From Motilibacter peucedani (GTDB lineage: Bacteria > Actinomycetota > Actinomycetes > Motilibacterales > Motilibacteraceae): a stretch of 64,000 bases of DNA. Below the pieces are notes generated by a model. The model was given only the letters and a program-made list of their open reading frames with translations. It was not told the DNA's origin and searched no databases. The stretch spans positions 434,001 through 498,000 of the forward strand of contig NZ_RBWV01000009.1 in the NCBI RefSeq assembly GCF_003634695.1, read 5' to 3'. Of the stretch, positions 21,166 through 32,926 are shown piece after piece. A program made the position numbers and the translations under genes. Positions within the stretch are counted from its first letter, which is position 1, and the number at the start of each line of letters is the position of its first letter.

Positions 21166-22626
21166 TCAGCCGCCGAGCGCGGCGAGGTAGCGCAGCGCCC
21201 GGACGCCGGGCAGGAAGAAGTACGCGCCGCCGCGGACGGTGACGAAGGCGGGGAGCCCGCGCGTACGCCGGCGCACCGGCACCGCCTGCTCGGTGAAGCT
21301 GTGACCGGTGGGGAGGTGGCCGCCGAGCAGCGGGTCCGCGTCGTCGTAGAGGCCGTCGAACTGGGCGTTGAGCGCCCACGTGTGCGTCACGAACTCGAAC
21401 TGGCGGGCGACGTCGGCGCACAGGCACAGGAAGTGCAGGCCGCGTACGTCCCCCGCCTCGTCGTCCCAGCGCGGGAGCTCGCCGCCGGCCAGGACGCCGG
21501 CGAGGTCGACCGGCGGGCCGTACTCACGGCCGCGCCTCATCAGCCGGTGGCGCTTGCCCACGGCCACGGAAGCGTCGGTGCCGGGCTTCGGCGGCAGCGA
21601 GTCGCGCGGGTTGGTGCGCCGCACGTGCGCGCCGACGGGGCACACGTGTCCAGCGAGGTCCGCGGCGTAGCCGAACTCGTTCGACTCCGCGAGCGCCGGG
21701 TCGTCGTGCTCGGGCGACTGCGTCACGGGCGCGCCGCCGGGCCAGCGACCGACCATGCGGGCCGCGAGCCGGGTGCGAGCCGCCCCGTCGCTGCTGCCGT
21801 CGGCCCGCCGCGTGCACTGGTCGAGGAACCGCCAGAAGGCGTGGACGTCCTGCTCGAGCTGCCGGACGACGAGGTAGGACCCGTCGCGGCCGAGGTCGCG
21901 CCGGCCGCCGGCCGTCTCCGGGAGCACGTCGAGCCGGTCCGTGGCCGCGTCGACCGTCGGCGTCGGCGGCACCTGGTCGTGCTCGTTGCGGTAGCCCAGC
22001 ACGAACTCGCCGGCACGCACGGTGTGCATCGCCGGCCCCGGGCGGCCGAAGCCGGCGATGGCCGGCTGCGAGACGCCGTCGCGGAACCCGAAGTGCTCGA
22101 CCGGCCCGAGGTCGTGCGTGTCGAGCGCGCGCACCAGCCGCAGGCCCGACGCCTCCGCGCGCGCAGCCTCCTCGTCGCGCAGGCGGGCTACCTGCTCGTC
22201 GTCGGGCGCGTAGAGCAGGAGCAGCAGGTCGGGCGACGGGCTCCCCGGCCCGCCCCACTCCCAGCCCGCCGGCGCTGCCGCGCCCACGTCGCCCAGCAGT
22301 CGGCTGCGGTGCGGGCTGGTCATGCCCTCCTGGACCTCGACGGGGAACTCGGCGAGCGACGCCTCAGCGAGCCCGAGCCGGCGCAGGCCCTCGTGCGTGA
22401 CCGCGACGTTGACCGCACGCCCGTCGGGGCGCCCGGACCCGGCGCTCACCCGCGGCACCAGCGAGGCGAGCCAGCCGCGGGCCCGAGCCGGGTCGACCAC
22501 CTCGAGCACGAGGTAGCAGGCGCCGCGCAGCTTGCCGTAGCCCTGGAAGACCAGCGCCTGCACGTCGTCCTCGTCGACTCGCTCGATCGCGAGCCGCCCT
22601 CGCCTGCTCAGAGCCGTGCCAGCCAC
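21166..22626 (-). CDS. Dye-decolorizing (Dyp-type) haem peroxidase
   Basis: 486 residues. The distal haem motif is FGFRDGVSQP with Asp183. HVRRTNPRD, HRLMRRGREYGPP and GLHFLCLCADVARQFEFV are conserved blocks of the larger Dyp peroxidases. These enzymes oxidise varied substrates with hydrogen peroxide. The GTG at 22626 is preferred because AGGAGG lies seven bases upstream; it overlaps the preceding gene by 19 bases. No Tat signal and no encapsulin-targeting tail is evident, so it is probably cytoplasmic. It is the last gene of the operon opened by the FAD oxidase, which could supply the peroxide. Confidence 0.88.
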   Translation of the reverse strand: MAGTALSRRGRLAIERVDEDDVQALVFQGYGKLRGACYLVLEVVDPARARGWLASLVPRVSAGSGRPDGRAVNVAVTHEGLRRLGLAEASLAEFPVEVQEGMTSPHRSRLLGDVGAAAPAGWEWGGPGSPSPDLLLLLYAPDDEQVARLRDEEAARAEASGLRLVRALDTHDLGPVEHFGFRDGVSQPAIAGFGRPGPAMHTVRAGEFVLGYRNEHDQVPPTPTVDAATDRLDVLPETAGGRRDLGRDGSYLVVRQLEQDVHAFWRFLDQCTRRADGSSDGAARTRLAARMVGRWPGGAPVTQSPEHDDPALAESNEFGYAADLAGHVCPVGAHVRRTNPRDSLPPKPGTDASVAVGKRHRLMRRGREYGPPVDLAGVLAGGELPRWDDEAGDVRGLHFLCLCADVARQFEFVTHTWALNAQFDGLYDDADPLLGGHLPTGHSFTEQAVPVRRRTRGLPAFVTVRGGAYFFLPGVRALRYLAALGG

Positions 22627-23840
22627 CGCGCCGCCTCCTGCTCGGTCATCGGCCCGCGCAGCCCGGCACGGATCGCCGCGTTCTCGTCGACCGTCACGGC
22701 CGCGAGCTCCGGGTAGGCCGACCACCACACCGGCGTCTCGATCTGGTGGCCGCGGATGAACGCCTTGAAGCCGACCTCGTCGTGCGCGCCGTCGCGGACG
22801 AGCCAGCGGGTGCGCGGAAAGCCCTCCTCCACGCCGAAGACCGTGTTGAGCACCCACGCGATCTGGTCGACGAAGTCGTTGTTGTAGCTCTCGAGGCTGC
22901 CGTCGTAGTAGCTCGTGAACAGCATCCGGTCGCCGACGCGGTCGAAGCGGGCGAAGTGCACCGTGCGCAGGCCCGAGAGGCCCTGGTGGTTGAAGACGTG
23001 GCGGGCGACGTAGTCGCCCACGGCGATCGACATGCTGCAGGACACCGACCAGAAGCGCCCGGGCTTGACGGGCGCGATGCTCGTGAAGGCGTTCTGGACG
23101 CCGTAGTCCTCGGCGTCGCCGAGGGCGCGCAGCCGCGCCGGGTCGAGGGGTACGCGTGCGGCCGGGTCCCGCCGCTCGTGCCGGCGCAGCGCGAGGAACC
23201 ACAGCACCAGAGCCGGCAGCACGACCGGCAGCAGCACGAGCAGCGCAGCCGGCACCGCCACGCGGTGGGCCGCCTCACGCAGGCGGAAGCGCAGCGCCGG
23301 GCGGGCGGGCCGGTCGAGCGCCTCCGTGAGGTCGGGCCGGGACGCGACCTCGCGGCGGAGCCGTTCACGCACCTCTCGGCACGATCTCTCGACCGGGCCG
23401 CCCTCGTCGAGGGAGTCCTCGAGCGCGGCGCGCAGGCGGGCTTCGAGGCGTACCTGCTGCACCGTACGTCCGACGTCGTGGACGTAGACCACGGCGCTCC
23501 TCTGCCGGTGGCTGCGCAGGAAGCGGGCACGTCCCGACGGGCGCGCGACCGCGGGGTAGCCCTGGCAGCAGCCGAGGAGCCGGTCGAGTCCCTCGTGCTG
23601 GGAGAGCGCCCTCAGCAGCCGGCGCTCCGGCGCGTCGCAGTCGAGCATCAGGAAGAGGAGCGGAGAGGTCTGCTCGTCGACGACGACCACCCGCGCGAAG
23701 TGCAGCCCGGGCAGCTCGGCGAAGGGCAGCACGTCGTTCGCGGCAGGGTCGTCGGCCATCGCGGTGAGCACCTCGCGCAGGCCGGGCAGCCGCCCGGGTC
23801 GAACGGCCGCGCGGATGGTGACCGCGACCTGGTGGGGCAT
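22608..23840 (-). CDS. Unrecognised protein with internal domain duplication and one membrane segment
   Basis: 410 residues; I do not recognise the family. Two stretches resemble each other: LHFARVVVVDE...LLFLMLDCDAP (residues 46-71) and VHFARFDRVGD...MLFTSYYDGSLES (294-318). This suggests two copies of a beta-alpha-beta unit, possibly of the ferredoxin-like kind seen in Dyp peroxidases. Between them lie a charged helical region (about 130-190) and a hydrophobic segment (about 193-218), probably a membrane anchor. A Tyr/Asp-rich run (SYYDGSLESYNNDFVDQ) is a likely functional site in the second copy. The gene shares one base with the SnoaL-like stop (TGATG) and overlaps the peroxidase gene, so it is tightly bound to this operon. 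Confidence 0.6.
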   Translation of the reverse strand: MPHQVAVTIRAAVRPGRLPGLREVLTAMADDPAANDVLPFAELPGLHFARVVVVDEQTSPLLFLMLDCDAPERRLLRALSQHEGLDRLLGCCQGYPAVARPSGRARFLRSHRQRSAVVYVHDVGRTVQQVRLEARLRAALEDSLDEGGPVERSCREVRERLRREVASRPDLTEALDRPARPALRFRLREAAHRVAVPAALLVLLPVVLPALVLWFLALRRHERRDPAARVPLDPARLRALGDAEDYGVQNAFTSIAPVKPGRFWSVSCSMSIAVGDYVARHVFNHQGLSGLRTVHFARFDRVGDRMLFTSYYDGSLESYNNDFVDQIAWVLNTVFGVEEGFPRTRWLVRDGAHDEVGFKAFIRGHQIETPVWWSAYPELAAVTVDENAAIRAGLRGPMTEQEAARWLARL

Positions 23841-24262
23841 CAGAGCGGGTGCCGGATCCCGCCGAGCTGCTCGACGAGCTCGAAGCGGTCGAAGGCCACC
23901 CGCACCTCGCGGATCCGGTCGCCCTGCAGGTGGAAGATGTCGATGCCGGGCACGGAGACGTGCCGGTCGGTGAGGTGGAGCCCGAGGAAGCTGGCCCGGT
24001 GCGTGCCCGTCCAGGTGAAGCGCACGGCGGCCTTGTCGTCCTGCCAGAGGATGTCGTCGATCGTGAAGTGCACGTCGGGGAACGCCTTGAAGAAGACACC
24101 GAAGAAGCGCTTGACCTCTGCGTGGCCGGTGGCGAGCCCGGTCGGCACCCAGGCCGGGTCGTGGAAGGCGATGTCCTCGGTGAACAGCGTGTCGACGTAG
24201 GACACGTCGTGGGCGTTGGTCAGCTTGTCGAAGTAGCTGCGGGCGACGGCTTCGGTGTCCAC
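23840..24262 (-). CDS. SnoaL-like / ester cyclase family protein
   Basis: 140 residues, one NTF2-like cone fold. The opening VARSYFDKLTNAHDVSYVDTLFTEDIAFHDP and the later GHAEVKRFFGVFFKAFPDVHFTIDDI are the usual SnoaL/polyketide-cyclase pattern. Such proteins act as small cyclases, isomerases or hydrolases; the substrate here is unknown. It lies four bases after the FAD oxidase stop and shares one base with the next start, so it is the second gene of a four-gene operon. Confidence 0.82.
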   Translation of the reverse strand: MDTEAVARSYFDKLTNAHDVSYVDTLFTEDIAFHDPAWVPTGLATGHAEVKRFFGVFFKAFPDVHFTIDDILWQDDKAAVRFTWTGTHRASFLGLHLTDRHVSVPGIDIFHLQGDRIREVRVAFDRFELVEQLGGIRHPL

Positions 24263-24266
24263 CGGC

Positions 24267-25634
24267 TCAGGCGCCCGGTGAGGCGATGAGCTCGCGGAAG
24301 TAGTCGTTGAGCAGCCGGCCTCCGGGGTCGTAGCGCCGCCGGTGGGCGTCGAACTGCTCGATGCGCGAGCCGAACGCCTTGTCGACCTGCTCGCGCGTCA
24401 GGAAGTTGGTCTGGTTGAACAGCGGGACCCCGCCGAGGTCGCTGCACAGCTGGTTGTAGGCCCGCAGGAACTGGTCCCAGCCCTCGCTGCCGGTGGACAC
24501 CGGGTCGAACGTGATGACGGTCCCGTTGTAGCTGTAGGAGAACAGCGAGCTCTGGTCGTCGTTGATGCGGTAGCCCACGCTGAGGAGGTCGACGCGGTAG
24601 CCGGTGCGGCGGTAGTGCTCCTTGGTGAAGGCGAAGTAGGCCCGCAGGCACTCGACGTAGCGCTCCTCGGGGAACGCCCAGATGCTGAAGGTGTAGCGGG
24701 CGTTGGTGGGCACGACGGGGTAGCGGATCTGCTGCGCCATGGCCGCCGTGCGCTCGCCCTTCACGAAGGTCAGCAGGGCGAAGACGATGAAGCGGTTGTA
24801 GAGGTCGTAGAGCAAGCCCCTCAGACGCCTGCTCCTCACCAGGGTGGTGACCCGATGGCCGAACAGTGGCGCGGCGTGGCTCCAGACGTAGTTGCGCAGC
24901 TTCCACTGCCAGGACGTCAGCGTGCGCGGGTCGCCGACCGGCTCGTAGTGGCGGAACTCGACGGTCACGCTGTCGGTGAAGGGGTTGATGTAGAGCATCA
25001 TCGACTCGCCGCGGGCGCTGAGCTCGGGCAGCCGGGCGGCGAACTGCTCGAAGGTGAAGTGCTCGTGGTGGACGCTGAGGGCGTCGAGCCGGCGCACGCG
25101 GAACGTGGCCTCGTAGACCACACCGAACAACCCGTAGCTCGAGCGCGCCACCTGGAGCAGCTCCGGGTCGTCCTCGGTGAACTCGACCAGCTCGCCGGAG
25201 GGTGTGACCATCTTGATCGCGACCGCGTAGGACGCGAGCTGGCCGAACTCGCCCGCGAACGACGCGTCCTTGGTGCCGCCCGTGCAGGCGCTGCCGATGG
25301 TGATGTTGCCGAGCTCGACGTTGACGTAGAACTGCAGGCCGTTCTTGCGCAGCAGGATGTTGACGTCGAGGTAGAGCGCGCCCGCCTGCGCCGTCACCGT
25401 GTCGTCGCGGATCTCGAGGATGCGGTCCATCTTGCGCATCACCAGCAGCGTGCCGCCTTCGGCGACGCCGCAAGGGGTCGTCGAGTGGTTGGACCCGACG
25501 GCGCGCACAGGAGCGGGATAGCGCTCGGGGTCGCGCATGACCTCGACGATCTGCTCGACCGTCTCGACCTCCACGACGACCCGCGGCGCGGAGACGATCG
25601 AACCGAACCAGTTCGACACTCGGATCGACTGCAT
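24267..25634 (-). CDS. FAD-linked oxidase (lactone/alditol oxidase-like)
   Basis: 455 residues. The N-terminal FAD-binding domain (PCMH type) reads VRAVGSNHSTTPCG, where His50 sits where covalent flavin attachment occurs in gulonolactone and alditol oxidases. Then comes GNITIGSACTGGTKDASF, the pyrophosphate-binding loop. The C-terminal half is a substrate domain ending DPGGRLLNDYF. Many relatives reduce oxygen to hydrogen peroxide. The ATG at 25634 has AGGAGG five bases upstream; codons further upstream are promoter sequence. It is the first gene of the operon with SnoaL-like, duplicated-domain and Dyp peroxidase genes. Confidence 0.82.
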   Translation of the reverse strand: MQSIRVSNWFGSIVSAPRVVVEVETVEQIVEVMRDPERYPAPVRAVGSNHSTTPCGVAEGGTLLVMRKMDRILEIRDDTVTAQAGALYLDVNILLRKNGLQFYVNVELGNITIGSACTGGTKDASFAGEFGQLASYAVAIKMVTPSGELVEFTEDDPELLQVARSSYGLFGVVYEATFRVRRLDALSVHHEHFTFEQFAARLPELSARGESMMLYINPFTDSVTVEFRHYEPVGDPRTLTSWQWKLRNYVWSHAAPLFGHRVTTLVRSRRLRGLLYDLYNRFIVFALLTFVKGERTAAMAQQIRYPVVPTNARYTFSIWAFPEERYVECLRAYFAFTKEHYRRTGYRVDLLSVGYRINDDQSSLFSYSYNGTVITFDPVSTGSEGWDQFLRAYNQLCSDLGGVPLFNQTNFLTREQVDKAFGSRIEQFDAHRRRYDPGGRLLNDYFRELIASPGA

Positions 25635-25770: not shown

Positions 25771-26142
25771 ATGCTGCTGAGTCCCGCTGCTGCGCGGAAG
25801 ACGCTCGCCACGATCCGCATCGTCAACGGCGCCGCCGGCCTGCTCGCGCCCCAGCTGCTGCTCGGCCGCCTCGGCACCGACACCCGGCTGGACCGGTCGG
25901 GCTTCTACCCCTTCCGCATGTTCGGGATCCGCACCGTGCTCATCGGCGCCGACCTTCTGGTGCTGCAGGGGGAGCAGCGCCGGCGGGCGGTGCAGCTCGC
26001 GGTCCTGATCCACACCACCGACACGCTGTCGGCGGCGACGGCAGGGGTACGCGGTGACCTCCCCCGCCGTGCTGCGGTCGTCACGACCCTGGTGTCGGCG
26101 ACCAACACCGCGCTGGCGCTGGTGGCCGCGTCGGGGGAGTAG
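25771..26142 (+). CDS. Small integral membrane protein, four helices
   Basis: 123 residues with hydrophobic segments at about 12-32, 42-62, 66-80 and 98-119. It resembles the DUF4267-type small membrane proteins in layout (RIVNGAAGLLAP, FGIRTVLIGADLL), but I cannot assign the family firmly. The ATG at 25771 has AAGGGGA five bases upstream; an in-frame GTG at 25741 lacks a site. It is divergent from the FAD oxidase operon and 15 bases before the zinc-ribbon gene, so it may be co-transcribed with the latter. Confidence 0.6.
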   Translation: MLLSPAAARKTLATIRIVNGAAGLLAPQLLLGRLGTDTRLDRSGFYPFRMFGIRTVLIGADLLVLQGEQRRRAVQLAVLIHTTDTLSAATAGVRGDLPRRAAVVTTLVSATNTALALVAASGE

Positions 26143-27278: not shown

Positions 27279-27368
27279 CGGGGTGCGCCACCGCTGGTGC
27301 GCCGACGAGCGAACTCCGCCTGGCAGAGGCCCCGGCGGGATCCGACGACGCGAGACGAGGGAGGTGCC

Positions 27369-28235
27369 GTGGGCGTCCTGCAGCGCTTCGAGCGGCGCGT
27401 CGAGACCCTCGTCAACGGCGCGTTCGCCCGCGCCTTCAAGTCCGAGGTCAAGCCGGTCGAGATCGCGGCCGCGCTGCAGCGCGAGGCCGACGACAAGGCC
27501 CAGGTCCTCTCCCGCGAGCGGGTGATGGTGCCCAACTCCTACGTCGTCGAGCTCAGCCCGCGCGACTCCGAGCGGCTCGACCCCTGGTCCGAGCCCCTGC
27601 GCGCCGAGCTGGCCGCGATGGTGGCCGAGCACGCCGAGGCCCAGGGCTACTCGCCGACGGGCCGGGTCGGCGTCGAGTTCGAGCGCCACGACGACCTCGA
27701 CACCGGCATGTTCCGCGTGCGCTCGCGGGCCGACGCGGCACCCCCGCCCGTCCGCGTCGAGGCGCGCCGGGCCCCGGCACCCGCCCCCGCTCCGGCGGGG
27801 GCCGCCTGGTCGGAGCAGGAGCGGCGGCCTCCGGCACCCGTCCCGCGCGGCGCCGACGCGACGGTCGTGCAGCGGGTCGCGCGCACCCCCGAGCCGTGGC
27901 TCGAGGTGGAGGGCGCGCGCGTACCCCTCCGCCAGGGCGTCACCGTCATCGGCCGCGGCTCCGAGGCCGACCTGCGCCTCGACGACCCCGGTGTCTCGCG
28001 CCGGCACGCATCCCTCCAGGTCGCAGGGTCCCGCGCCCGGCTGCTCGACCTGGGCTCCACCAACGGCACGATCGTCGCCGGCCAGCGGGTGCGCGACACC
28101 GACCTGCGCGACGGCGACACGGTGGTGCTGGGCCGCTCGACCGTCGTCTTCCACAGCGACGCGGTCGCCCTGCGACCCGACGCCTACGGACCCGCCGGCG
28201 AGGACCCCGACTCCTTCGTCCCGGGGCTGCGATGA
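27369..28235 (+). CDS. fhaA: FhaA, FHA-domain protein with DUF3662
   Basis: 288 residues. The N-terminal DUF3662 domain (VLQRFERRVETLVNGAFARAFKSEVKPVEIAAALQREAD) is followed by a Pro/Ala/Arg linker at about 125-170. A C-terminal FHA domain has the phosphothreonine-binding signature GRGSEADLRLDDPGVSRRHASL and GSTNGT. In mycobacteria FhaA binds phosphorylated partners of PknB, including the MurJ pseudokinase, in peptidoglycan control. The GTG at 27369 follows GGGAGG. It is the first gene of the fhaA-fhaB-pstP-rodA-pbpA-pknA-pknB set, in the usual actinobacterial order. Confidence 0.93.
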   Translation: MGVLQRFERRVETLVNGAFARAFKSEVKPVEIAAALQREADDKAQVLSRERVMVPNSYVVELSPRDSERLDPWSEPLRAELAAMVAEHAEAQGYSPTGRVGVEFERHDDLDTGMFRVRSRADAAPPPVRVEARRAPAPAPAPAGAAWSEQERRPPAPVPRGADATVVQRVARTPEPWLEVEGARVPLRQGVTVIGRGSEADLRLDDPGVSRRHASLQVAGSRARLLDLGSTNGTIVAGQRVRDTDLRDGDTVVLGRSTVVFHSDAVALRPDAYGPAGEDPDSFVPGLR

Positions 28236-28268
28236 TCTCGCCAGCAGCGGCGACGAAGGGCTGGTGAC

Positions 28269-28772
28269 GTGGAGGAGCTCTCGGGGCTCACGCTCGGGGT
28301 CATCAAGCTCGGGTTCCTGGCCGTCCTGTGGCTGTTCGTGCTGACCGCCGTGGGCGTCATGCGCTCCGACCTGTTCGGCACCCGGCTCGCGCGCCGCGGC
28401 ACCGGCTCGGGCGGCGCCATCCGCGCGGAGCGCCCTGCGCGGGCCTCCCGGGCGCCGAAGGAGCCGCGCCGCCGCCGTGGCGCCCCGACCACGCTCGTCG
28501 TGACCGAGGGCCCGCTCGCCGGCACGACGGTCCCACTGGGACCGGTGCCCATCACCGTCGGCCGGGCGCCCGACAACACGATCGTGCTGGCCGACGACTA
28601 CGCCTCCGGCCACCACGCGCGGCTGTTCGGCCAGGACGACGAGTGGTACGTCGAGGACCTCGGCTCCACCAACGGCACCTGGGTCGAGCGCACCCGCGTG
28701 GCGAGCCCGACCAGCGTGCGGGCCGGGGTGCCCGTACGCGTGGGCCGCACCGTCCTCGAGCTGCGGAAGTAG
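28269..28772 (+). CDS. fhaB: FhaB (FipA), membrane FHA-domain protein
   Basis: 167 residues. One N-terminal membrane helix (about 8-32) and a basic linker lead to an FHA domain with GRAPDNTIVLADDYASGHHARL and GSTNGTWV. In mycobacteria it is a PknA/PknB substrate that links FtsZ and FtsQ under stress. The start is GTG (VEELSGLTLG). It lies 33 bases after fhaA and four bases before pstP. Confidence 0.92.
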   Translation: MEELSGLTLGVIKLGFLAVLWLFVLTAVGVMRSDLFGTRLARRGTGSGGAIRAERPARASRAPKEPRRRRGAPTTLVVTEGPLAGTTVPLGPVPITVGRAPDNTIVLADDYASGHHARLFGQDDEWYVEDLGSTNGTWVERTRVASPTSVRAGVPVRVGRTVLELRK

Positions 28773-28776
28773 GCGC

Positions 28777-30054
28777 ATGGCGACGGCACTGCGGTTCGCC
28801 GCGCGCTCCGACGTGGGCCTGCTGCGCGACGGCAACGAGGACTCCGGCTACGCCGGCCCGCGGCTGCTCGCGGTCGCCGACGGCGTCGGCGGGCACGTCG
28901 CCGGCGAGGTCGCGAGCTCGCTGGCGATCGCCACCATGGCAGCCCTCGACGAGGACCCGCCCGGCAACGACCTGCTGACCTCGCTGCGCGCCGCCGTGAC
29001 CGCGGCCAACGAGCAGATCGGCGCGATGATCCTCGGCGACCCCGCGCTCGAGGGCATGGGCACGACGCTCACCGCGCTGCTGCGTACCGGCTCCCGCCTC
29101 GCGCTCGTGCACGTCGGCGACTCGCGCGGCTACCTGCTGCGCGACGGCTCGCTCGAGCAGATCACCCACGACCACACGTTCGTGCAGTCACTGGTCGACG
29201 AGGGCCGCATCACCCGCGAGGAGGCCGGCTCCCACCCCCAGCGCAACCTGATCACCCGCGCGCTCTCCGGCCACGGAGAGGTCGAGCCCGACCTCTCCGT
29301 CCGCGAGGCCCGCGCTGGGGACCGCTACCTGCTCTGCAGCGACGGGCTCTCCGGCGTGGTCTCCGACGAGACCCTTCACGAGGTGCTCACCGAGGCCGTC
29401 GACCCGGACGCCGCGTGCGAGTCGCTCGTGCAGTACGCGTTGCGCGCCGGCGGCCCCGACAACGTCACGGTCGTGGTGGCCGACGTCGTCGACACCGGCG
29501 CGAGCCCGTCGCAGGTCCCGCAGGTGGTCGGCGCGGTCGCCGACGAGCGCGCCGGTCGCGGCGGCGGGATGCTGCCGCGGCCCTCGGCCGCCCAGCGCGC
29601 GGCCGCTCTTCGTCCTGCCGCCATCGAGGTGGCGACGCCCCCGCCGCCCGAGCGGCCGCGGCGCTGGCCGATCGCGCTCGTGCTGGTGCTCGCCCTTGCG
29701 GCGCTCGGCGCCGGCGGGTGGGGCGCCTGGCACTGGTCGCAGGGCCAGTACTACGTCGGCGCCCACGAGGGCCACGTCGCGATCTACCGCGGCCTGCCGC
29801 AGTCGCTCGCCGGCGTCTCGCTGTCCTCGGTGGTGCAGGACGAGCCGGTCGCCCTCACCGACCTGCCCGACTTCGCGGTGCAGAAGCTCAACGACGGGAT
29901 CGCGGCCGACAGCCTCGCCGACGCCCGCGTCCGCGTCACGACCCTCGCCGAGCAGGCGGCACGCTGCCGGCAGACCCCCGACGCCGCCGAGTGCCACGAC
30001 GCCGACGACGAGCTGGCCACGACTCCCAGCGCCAGCCCGGGAGCGACGTCGTGA
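28777..30054 (+). CDS. pstP: PstP, PP2C-family Ser/Thr protein phosphatase
   Basis: 425 residues. The PP2C domain occupies 1-240 with DVGLLRDGNEDS, VADGVGGH, VHVGDSRGYLLRDG, LCSDGLSGVV and GGPDNVTVVV, the complete metal-binding set. A Pro-rich linker leads to a membrane helix at about 291-311, then an outside domain of about 100 residues. It reverses phosphorylation by PknA and PknB. The stop overlaps the rodA start as GTGA. Confidence 0.93.
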   Translation: MATALRFAARSDVGLLRDGNEDSGYAGPRLLAVADGVGGHVAGEVASSLAIATMAALDEDPPGNDLLTSLRAAVTAANEQIGAMILGDPALEGMGTTLTALLRTGSRLALVHVGDSRGYLLRDGSLEQITHDHTFVQSLVDEGRITREEAGSHPQRNLITRALSGHGEVEPDLSVREARAGDRYLLCSDGLSGVVSDETLHEVLTEAVDPDAACESLVQYALRAGGPDNVTVVVADVVDTGASPSQVPQVVGAVADERAGRGGGMLPRPSAAQRAAALRPAAIEVATPPPPERPRRWPIALVLVLALAALGAGGWGAWHWSQGQYYVGAHEGHVAIYRGLPQSLAGVSLSSVVQDEPVALTDLPDFAVQKLNDGIAADSLADARVRVTTLAEQAARCRQTPDAAECHDADDELATTPSASPGATS

Positions 30055-31472
30055 CGACGACCAGCGCGATGACGCTGACCCCCCAGGCGACGCGCAGCCG
30101 ACGGGGCGCGGAACTGTTCCTGCTGGTCGTCGGCGGGTTGGTCTTCGTGGGCGCGTACGCCGCGGTCGGCCTCGGCGTCAACGGCGAGCTCCCTGCCAAC
30201 CTCGGCACCTACGGCGCGTTCCTCGCGGTGCTGCTGCTCGCCGCCCACCTGGTGGTGCGCCGGACGGCCCGCTACGCCGACCCGGTGCTGCTGCCGGCGG
30301 TCGGGGTCCTCAACGGGCTCGGCCTGGCGATGATCCACCGGCTCGACCTCGCCGACGTGAAGCGCGGCGAGGAGGCGCGGGGCGCGCTGCCCAGCGGCGA
30401 CGCGCTCTCGCAGCTGACCTGGATGACCGTGGGCGTCGCGCTCTTCGCGCTCGTGCTCATCGGCGTGCGCGACCACCGCACCCTGCAGCGCTACACCTAC
30501 ACCGCGATGGTGCTCGGCATCGGGCTGCTGCTCCTGCCGCTGGTGCCGGGCATCGGCGTGACGCTCAACGGCTCGCGCATCTGGATCCGCGCCCTCGGCT
30601 TCTCGTTCCAGCCCGGCGAGGCCGCCAAGGTCGTGCTGATGGTGTTCTTCGCGGGCTACCTCGTCGTCAAGCGCGACGTGCTCGCGCTGGCGGGGCGGCG
30701 GGTGCTGGGGGTCGACCTCCCGCGCGGGCGCGACCTCGGCCCGCTGATGCTCGTCTGGCTCGCCTGCCTGGCGATCCTCGTCTTCGAGAAGGACCTCGGC
30801 ACCTCGGTGCTGTTCTTCGGCTCGTTCGTCATGCTGCTCTACGTCGCCACCCAGCGGCGCAGCTGGCTGATCCTCGGCGCGCTGCTGTTCGCCGTGGGCG
30901 GGTGGTTCGCCTACAAGTCCTTCGGCCACGTGCACGTGCGCGTCGACGCCTGGCTGCACCCCTTCGCCCACCCCGAGCTCGGCCCGACCCAGTTGACGCA
31001 GGGGCTCTTCGGCCTGGCGGCCGGCGGCATCCTCGGCACGGGTCTGGGCCTCGGGCGGCCCGACCTCGTCCCGCTGGCCAAGAGCGACTTCATCGTCGCC
31101 TCGATCGGCGAGGAGCTCGGGCTCACCGGGCTGATGGCCGTGCTGCTGCTCTACGGGATCATCGTCGAGCGCGGCCTGCGCACTGCGATCGCCTCCCGCG
31201 ACGCCTTCGGCAAGCTGCTCGCGGCCGGCCTGTCCTTCATCATCGGCATCCAGGTGTTCGTCGTCGTCGGCGGTGTCACCCGGCTCATCCCGCTGACCGG
31301 CCTGACCACGCCGTTCCTCTCCTACGGCGGGTCGTCGCTCGTCGTCAACTGGATGATCATCGCGCTGCTGCTGCGCATGAGCGACGCGGCCCGGCGCCCC
31401 GCACCCGTACCGTCGACGGCCGCGAGCACCGCGAGCGCGACCACCGGGCGACAGCCGGCGGTGCAGCCGTGA
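30051..31472 (+). CDS. rodA: RodA, SEDS-family peptidoglycan glycosyltransferase
   Basis: 473 residues with about twelve membrane helices. SEDS signatures include GVTLNGSRIWIRALGFSFQPGEAAKV and the C-terminal TGLTTPFLSYGGSSLVVNW. It polymerises lipid II during cell elongation together with a class B penicillin-binding protein, here the next gene. The GTG at 30051 has GGGAG seven bases upstream. Both ends overlap neighbours as GTGA. Confidence 0.93.
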   Translation: MTTTSAMTLTPQATRSRRGAELFLLVVGGLVFVGAYAAVGLGVNGELPANLGTYGAFLAVLLLAAHLVVRRTARYADPVLLPAVGVLNGLGLAMIHRLDLADVKRGEEARGALPSGDALSQLTWMTVGVALFALVLIGVRDHRTLQRYTYTAMVLGIGLLLLPLVPGIGVTLNGSRIWIRALGFSFQPGEAAKVVLMVFFAGYLVVKRDVLALAGRRVLGVDLPRGRDLGPLMLVWLACLAILVFEKDLGTSVLFFGSFVMLLYVATQRRSWLILGALLFAVGGWFAYKSFGHVHVRVDAWLHPFAHPELGPTQLTQGLFGLAAGGILGTGLGLGRPDLVPLAKSDFIVASIGEELGLTGLMAVLLLYGIIVERGLRTAIASRDAFGKLLAAGLSFIIGIQVFVVVGGVTRLIPLTGLTTPFLSYGGSSLVVNWMIIALLLRMSDAARRPAPVPSTAASTASATTGRQPAVQP

Positions 31473-32926
31473 ACCGCCCCCTCCGGCGCATGGCGGCGGC
31501 GATGATGGTGCTGTTCGCGCTGCTCATCCTCAACGTCAACTACCTGCAGGCCGTCGAGGCGGGCAGCCTCAACGCCAAGCCGGGCAACCGGCGGGTCCTG
31601 CTGCTCGAGTACAGCAAGCAGCGCGGCCCGATCAACGTCGGCAGCCGGGCGATCGCGACGAGCGTCAAGACCGACGACCAGCTCGTCTACCAGCGCACCT
31701 ATCCCAGCCGCGGGCTGTTCGCCCACGTCACGGGCTACTGGTCGCTGTTCGACAAGACCGGCATCGAGAAGGCGCAGAACCCGGTCCTGTCGGGCACCGA
31801 CGACCGGCTGCGCATCCGCCGGCCGATCGACCTCGTGACCGGCCAGAGGATCCAGGGCGGGGCCGTGCAGCTCACGCTCAACACCAAGGCCCAGCAGGCC
31901 GCCACGGTCGGGCTGCAGAAGGCGGGCTCGGTCGGCGCGGTCGTCGCCATCGAGCCGAGCACCGGCAAGATCCTCGCCCTGCAGAGCCTGCCGACCTTCG
32001 ACCCGACACCGCTGGCGAGCCACGACGCCGGCACGGTGCTGAAGGCCTACGACGCGCTCAACGACGACCCGGCCAAGCCCCTGCTCGACCGCGCGCTGGG
32101 CGAGAACTATCCGCCCGGCTCGACGTTCAAGCTGGTCACGGCGGCCGCGGCTCTCTCGTCGGGCAAGTACACCCGGCTCGGCAAGGTGCCCGGGCAGGCG
32201 AGCCTCGACCTGCCGCAGACCGACAAGGACCTGCCCAACGAGAACGGCCGGCCCTGCGGCGACGGCAGCCCGACCCTGCAGGTCGCGCTCGAGAAGTCGT
32301 GCAACACCTCCTTCGGCGCGATCGGCATGGCGCTCGGCCCGGACGCCCTGCGCGAGCAGGCCGAGCGCTTCGGCTTCGACGACACCGAGCTGACCGTGCC
32401 GCTGCCGGTGGCCACCAGCTCGTTCCCCGGCAACCCGACGCCGCCGCAGGTCGCGCAGAGCGCCATCGGCCAGTTCGAGGTGAAGTCGACCCCGCTGCAG
32501 ATGGCCATGGTGGTCGCGGCGATCGCCAACAAGGGCTCGCTCATGAAGCCCTACCTCGTCGACCGGGTGCTCGGGCCCGACCTGACGGTGCTCGACCGCA
32601 CGACGCCCGAGCAGCTCAGCGAGGCCGTCACGCCGGAGGTCGCGGGCGAGCTCACCACGATGATGGAGGACGTCGTCACCAACGGCACCGGCACCAACGC
32701 CCGGATCGACGGCGTACGCGTCGCCGGCAAGACCGGCACCGCGCAGGTCGGGGGCGGCAAGAACCCGCACGCGTGGTTCGTGTCCTTCGCCCCCGCCGAC
32801 GACCCCAAGGTCGCCGTCGCCGTGGTCGTCCCGAACGGCGGGACAGCTCGAGAAGTCAGCGGCAACCAGGTTGCCGCACCCATCGCGAGAGCCGTGATGC
32901 AAGCAGTGCTCGGAGGTACGTCGTGA
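31469..32926 (+). CDS. pbpA: PbpA, class B penicillin-binding protein (transpeptidase)
   Basis: 485 residues. A short N-terminal tail and one membrane helix (about 8-27) lead to a PBP dimerisation domain and a transpeptidase domain. The catalytic motifs are Ser218-x-x-Lys (GSTFK), Ser277-Cys-Asn and Lys421-Thr-Gly. It cross-links peptidoglycan and partners RodA encoded just before. Starts and stops overlap neighbours as GTGA. Confidence 0.93.
   Translation: MNRPLRRMAAAMMVLFALLILNVNYLQAVEAGSLNAKPGNRRVLLLEYSKQRGPINVGSRAIATSVKTDDQLVYQRTYPSRGLFAHVTGYWSLFDKTGIEKAQNPVLSGTDDRLRIRRPIDLVTGQRIQGGAVQLTLNTKAQQAATVGLQKAGSVGAVVAIEPSTGKILALQSLPTFDPTPLASHDAGTVLKAYDALNDDPAKPLLDRALGENYPPGSTFKLVTAAAALSSGKYTRLGKVPGQASLDLPQTDKDLPNENGRPCGDGSPTLQVALEKSCNTSFGAIGMALGPDALREQAERFGFDDTELTVPLPVATSSFPGNPTPPQVAQSAIGQFEVKSTPLQMAMVVAAIANKGSLMKPYLVDRVLGPDLTVLDRTTPEQLSEAVTPEVAGELTTMMEDVVTNGTGTNARIDGVRVAGKTGTAQVGGGKNPHAWFVSFAPADDPKVAVAVVVPNGGTAREVSGNQVAAPIARAVMQAVLGGTS

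Follow-up and report, generated by a model that had tools for sequence, protein, structure and literature searches.

DyP-type peroxidases have been well studied on artificial dyes, but for most of them it is unclear what they act on in nature and which partners they have. In the 64,000-nucleotide stretch of the Motilibacter peucedani genome analysed here (the window), a gene for such a peroxidase is the last of an operon that also encodes a FAD oxidoreductase, a small SnoaL-like protein and a 410-residue protein, P0003. A preliminary description of this DNA read the operon as a closed peroxide-producing and peroxide-using module, perhaps with a membrane-tethered substrate carrier and a cyclase. 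The question is what these four genes do together, and whether all of them belong to the same functional core.

The operon and its four products

The four open reading frames all lie on the minus strand and span positions 21166-25634 of the window. Their coordinates were confirmed and the gaps between them, 4 bases (FAD-SnoaL), -1 base (SnoaL-P0003) and -19 bases (P0003-DyP), match those first described exactly. The operon is real and not a chance arrangement, because the sister genome G079 (L016), Nocardioides insulae (L024) and Marmoricola (L026) all have these four genes in identical order; the search for this neighbourhood in other actinobacteria, proposed in the preliminary description, therefore found it in some relatives. 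Apart from a DUF4267-like gene, the flanking genes checked in the window have no match in the four-gene loci, and the unit has therefore been kept while its surroundings change. In a Dehalococcoidia metagenome-assembled genome (MAG; L025) the FAD/SnoaL and P0003/DyP pairs are both present, in rearranged form. A promoter and terminator scan gave no signal, which says little at the G+C content of this DNA. Elsewhere in the window (27297-32926) FHA, PP2C, FtsW/RodA and penicillin-binding-like genes stand in series and, judged by eye, resemble a common actinobacterial cell-division and signalling cluster.

The first gene (24267-25634, minus strand, ATG start) encodes P0001, a 455-residue FAD oxidoreductase of the VAO/ALO type (FAD_binding_4, 73.3 bits; ALO, 34.6 bits; both above the Pfam cut-off), and the second (23840-24262, minus strand, GTG start) encodes P0002, a 140-residue NTF2-type protein that scores 97.2 bits against SnoaL (PF07366; cut-off 28.4), so that both family assignments made earlier stand. 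For a cyclase role of P0002 the family name is the sole support. In P0001, His50 (in the motif GSNHS) is of the covalent type, aligns with the corresponding His of 8ot8 and is conserved in five homologues. VAO-family oxidases favour a small residue at the oxygen-gatekeeper position. Such a residue was not found in P0001, where Val106 aligns with the gatekeeper Ala113 of GLDH and is Val in all five homologues. Because Val stands at this position, peroxide release by P0001 is in doubt, and the enzyme could be either an oxidase or a dehydrogenase. The sister genome carries a 74% identical copy in the corresponding position. A separate FAD-SnoaL system lacking the P0003-DyP pair was considered and rejected: of 395 genomes of the class, just two, the window genome and its sister, have close homologues of the FAD enzyme.

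P0003 (22608-23840, minus strand, ATG start) has no sequence match in Pfam, NCBIfam or the PDB, with no Pfam hit at E ≤1, the ABM/SchA-CurD family included. Its halves are homologous to one another (HHalign half against half, E 2.9e-17, probability 98.9), and thus the preliminary description was right to call it an unrecognised duplicated-domain protein. Structure prediction, which had also been proposed, was run on the single chain with AlphaFold2 and gave a confident model of an apparent tandem double-barrel (pLDDT 93.4, pTM 0.91), in which each half is modelled as a ferredoxin-like strand-helix-strand-strand-helix unit and two long helices (residues 183-202 and 204-224) lie between the halves. 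The membrane segment noted earlier corresponds to the one strongly hydrophobic stretch of the protein, residues 189-221 (23178-23276, minus strand), which has a mean hydropathy of up to 2.8 and a proline at its centre and falls within this helical hairpin. Since the two halves should pair together, both would be on the same side of the membrane, and the hairpin is therefore likely to be a monotopic anchor and not a membrane-spanning helix. In the alignment, His47 and His295 are invariant and occupy equivalent places in the two halves. When the model was searched with Foldseek, the closest solved folds were the ABM/SchA-CurD-like polyketide proteins WhiE-ORFI (9lmn) and the decarboxylase AbxO (9ltx), the apparent likeness being a tandem ferredoxin-like double-barrel over both halves of P0003. 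The match to 9lmn (E 1.8e-5 and 3.5e-5) is moderate in structural terms, with a best TM of 0.41-0.45 and an rmsd of 7.5 Å for chain A. P0003 differs from these proteins in having no sequence-family match, in the hydrophobic hairpin between its halves, and in having a DyP, not a polyketide synthase, as its partner.

The peroxidase itself, P0004 (486 residues; 21166-22626, minus strand, GTG start), reaches 102 bits against TIGR01413 (Dyp_perox_fam; cut-off 100.5). We regard it as a divergent DyP member, because the Pfam Dyp models are silent, with no match at E ≤1. The nearest solved sequence, 8re3 (E 1e-48), aligns over nearly the full length. P0004 shares with known DyP-type peroxidases the catalytic Asp183 of the GXXDG motif (here GFRDG; the Asp kept in 90 of 91 aligned rows), the distal Arg294 (86 of 87 non-gap rows) and the axial His334 (88/88); the earlier identification holds and the enzyme is predicted to be catalytically complete. 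Unlike known DyPs, it escapes the Pfam models and appears to be obligately partnered by a tandem-barrel protein with a probable membrane anchor. The second DyP of the genome (G000:C9:593339-593821; L001/L023) was set aside as a separate locus; it scores 146 bits against Dyp_perox_N, unlike P0004.

The P0003-DyP pair and its neighbours

One genome from each of 84,980 species was scanned with a reduced alignment as query, which yielded 286 relatives of P0003. The neighbourhood counts given here are for the best-scoring 80 of these, with kinship ignored. A DyP gene lies directly downstream of P0003 in all 80 loci, the median of the estimated gaps being -19 bases, and the taxa with the pair include Actinobacteria, Chloroflexi, Cyanobacteria, Acidobacteria and gamma-, delta- and alphaproteobacteria. 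The two genes form one open reading frame in an alphaproteobacterial MAG (L068) and are likewise fused on a Rhizobium plasmid, and on plasmids of Novosphingobium, Pararhizobium and Sulfitobacter (L010, L011, L013) they are joined to a cytochrome P450 in fusions of the order P450-P0003-DyP; in Skermanella the genes for P0003, DyP and P450 follow one another. As judged from gene order, P0003 and DyP are firmly established as an obligate gene pair, the conserved core of the operon. P0003 is rare in the class, being present in 8 of 297 genomes, 5 of them with strong matches. FAD and SnoaL genes accompany the pair in 3/80 loci (L024, L025, L026), besides the window and the sister genome, and are a clade-restricted add-on to the core. 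The peroxide-producing and peroxide-using module of the preliminary description does not hold as a unit, the invariant part being P0003 with its DyP.

The three-part fusions are about 1,440-1,640 residues long and are annotated merely as cytochrome P450 or DyP; upstream of each lies a related gene, the annotations being SARP-type regulator, adenylate/guanylate cyclase domain protein and hypothetical. On an Agrobacterium plasmid (L015:4720-7829) a catalase-family gene, a shorter single-domain relative of P0003 and a peroxidase gene stand in series.

Several other genes recur around the pair. The most frequent, c1, encodes a protein of about 150 residues and usually lies directly upstream of P0003 (70/80 loci). 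It has no Pfam match, but models as a FABP/lipocalin-type barrel: the AlphaFold2 model is a beta-barrel (pLDDT 80) that Foldseek places near Tcur_1030 (4mve) and proteins that bind bile acids, retinoic acid and fatty acids. In the window the corresponding slot is taken by P0002. A search of the window genome turned up no c1, which is likewise missing from all the FAD/SnoaL loci; SnoaL therefore fills the position of c1. A catalase-related hemoprotein is found near the pair in 55/80 loci. Its profile matches the coral allene oxide synthase 1u5u (6e-7) and 3e4w, a mycobacterial catalase-related protein (3e-6), ahead of true catalases, and the proteins keep the proximal Arg/Tyr pattern. On our reading of the alignment the catalase distal His is missing, the position, which we take from the catalase motif, being NTKT or NQAK in 15 of 16 rows.

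Near the pair in 47/80 loci is a gene for a fatty-acid alpha-dioxygenase, which is missing from the other 33, some of them truncated. Few genomes of the class have the gene (18 of 297); with random placement we therefore estimate about 0.2 linked cases in the 1.1 Mb of locus sequence, on the generous assumption of one copy per 5 Mb genome. Less frequent neighbours are the DUF4267-like gene (30/80), a GMC oxidoreductase (18/80), a diheme-type cytochrome (13/80) and a P450 (6/80). Across the 80 loci, alpha-dioxygenase and GMC genes occur together in one only (Fisher p 2e-7, kinship ignored). In the GMC-bearing loci (L073-L094), many from Acidobacteria, GMC and diheme-type cytochrome genes replace the alpha-dioxygenase beside the pair. 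In gammaproteobacterial loci such as L089, L095 and L098 the alpha-dioxygenase is about 970 residues long and by eye looks secreted, with a signal-like N-terminus, as does one of the two catalase-related proteins; the pair does not. Neighbour clusters c5 and c6 were discarded as apparent antisense frames of real genes (c6 is antisense to the catalase-related gene), and an apparent alpha-dioxygenase fragment in L026 proved to be an artefact, an overlong frame that covers a gene for a short-chain dehydrogenase.

The sister genome has its alpha-dioxygenase gene inside the cluster, adjoining the DUF4267 and FAD genes; in N. insulae the alpha-dioxygenase and FAD genes are divergent. The alignment of the sister-genome protein to 4kvj, a plant enzyme, covers residues 27-600 (E 1.5e-112), and the protein keeps the heme and tyrosine motifs DWxxH, AKxHTxxWT, YRMH and SRRLxxDRF. 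No alpha-dioxygenase, FABP-like or catalase-related gene linked to the operon was found in the window. The window genome has a single close alpha-dioxygenase (full-length, 58% identical), on contig C12 and unlinked to the operon. The DUF4267-like gene of the window (25771-26142, plus strand), absent from the preliminary description, is divergent from the operon; its product scores 19 bits where the Pfam cut-off is 27.8, and is 72% identical to one beside the pair in another genome (G157, L017). We count this gene as part of the conserved neighbourhood.

A candidate lipid-oxidation cassette

What chemistry would these genes support? One answer is the closed loop of the preliminary description, in which the FAD enzyme oxidises a substrate with release of hydrogen peroxide, and the DyP then spends this peroxide on a product that P0003 and SnoaL hold. 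The order and translational coupling of the operon, the conserved VAO-type His50, the complete set of catalytic residues in the DyP and the persistence of the four genes in three genera all speak for it. Against this, the FAD enzyme is missing in 77/80 pair loci, and the pair is therefore independent of it; moreover the gatekeeper Val departs from the small residue that oxidases typically have at this position. We consider such a loop unlikely. It is similarly improbable that the cassette serves lipid-peroxide detoxification or membrane repair, with the DyP and the catalase-related protein reducing toxic hydroperoxides at the membrane. Although the recurrence of heme peroxidase-like genes and a membrane-anchored partner would suit this, the catalase-related protein is without the catalase distal His, and the enzymes drawn into the cassette (alpha-dioxygenase, GMC and P450) yield hydroperoxides or oxidised products, which suggests biosynthesis rather than detoxification. 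That the nearby oxidases are merely stress sources or accessory, as this explanation would have it, we also doubt.

ABM proteins are fidelity factors in aromatic polyketide pathways (PMC6689052), and this role, the best fold matches of P0003, the SnoaL Pfam match and the SARP-type regulator beside the fused version in Novosphingobium could together be taken to indicate small-molecule biosynthesis, with P0003 as an ABM/SchA-like chaperone or cyclase, SnoaL as a cyclase and the DyP oxidising a polyketide-like or aromatic substrate. However, we saw no polyketide synthase in the clusters of genes that recur around the pair in the 80 loci, the recurrent partners are fatty-acid related and the fold similarity is moderate, and we find this the least probable of the alternatives, indeed very unlikely.

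The partner genes of the pair point instead to lipid-type substrates at the membrane, an assignment to which we give roughly an even chance. We would, with similar reservation, see the operon as a lineage-specific variant of a widespread, undescribed, membrane-associated heme-enzyme cassette for lipid (hydro)peroxides. In the mechanism that we infer, the hairpin of P0003 would enter one membrane leaflet, with both barrels on the cytoplasmic side, and P0003 would dock the DyP and present or channel to the peroxidase heme either a hydrophobic substrate or a hydroperoxide. A separate front-end oxidase would supply the oxidised substrate or peroxide; most relatives would use the alpha-dioxygenase for this, others a GMC enzyme or P450, and the window operon its FAD oxidoreductase. 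A small binding protein would carry the hydrophobic intermediate, SnoaL replacing the FABP-like barrel in the window. If P0001 does make peroxide, this could feed the DyP and could also activate an alpha-dioxygenase; activation by hydrogen peroxide is the subject of a study of a rice alpha-dioxygenase that PMC8720084 cites. Several points count against a lipid cassette: the window has no linked alpha-dioxygenase, FABP-like or catalase-related gene, 33 of the 80 loci are without alpha-dioxygenase, the GMC loci look like a different chemistry, and adjacency of P0003 and DyP is no proof of a complex.

More specifically, and with a probability that we would put somewhat short of even, the relatives may represent a widespread, undescribed bacterial oxylipin-type pathway of alpha-dioxygenase, FABP-like carrier, catalase-fold isomerase and a DyP on a tandem-barrel membrane adaptor, with the window as a branch whose front end has been swapped for a FAD oxidoreductase with SnoaL. 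Known oxylipin synthases include fungal dioxygenase-P450 fusions and coral allene oxide synthase-lipoxygenase fusions (PMC13049297, PMC5617202). The loci of the relatives resemble them in placing a fatty-acid dioxygenase with a second heme protein, a P450 or catalase-fold protein, which would process the hydroperoxide; they differ in adding a DyP, its tandem-barrel partner and a FABP-like carrier. The dioxygenase gene that such a cassette needs is in the cluster in the sister genome and in the 47 relatives, where it encodes a homologue of the known fatty-acid alpha-dioxygenases (4kvj, 4hhr), but for the window genome it lies outside the window on another contig. Cyanobacterial alpha-dioxygenases have been characterised, and a text search of the report on them returned no mention of operons or gene clusters (PMC8720084). 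The literature search found no paper that joins a DyP with an alpha-dioxygenase or a P450 fusion and, in agreement with the preliminary description, no described pathway with this gene set.

P0003 would thus be a cross-phylum, obligate DyP partner without a family model. The link to the alpha-dioxygenase provides a testable hypothesis for the role of one DyP branch, and could explain the presence of plant-like alpha-dioxygenases in bacteria. If the oxylipin-type pathway is real, it would make oxidised fatty-acid products.
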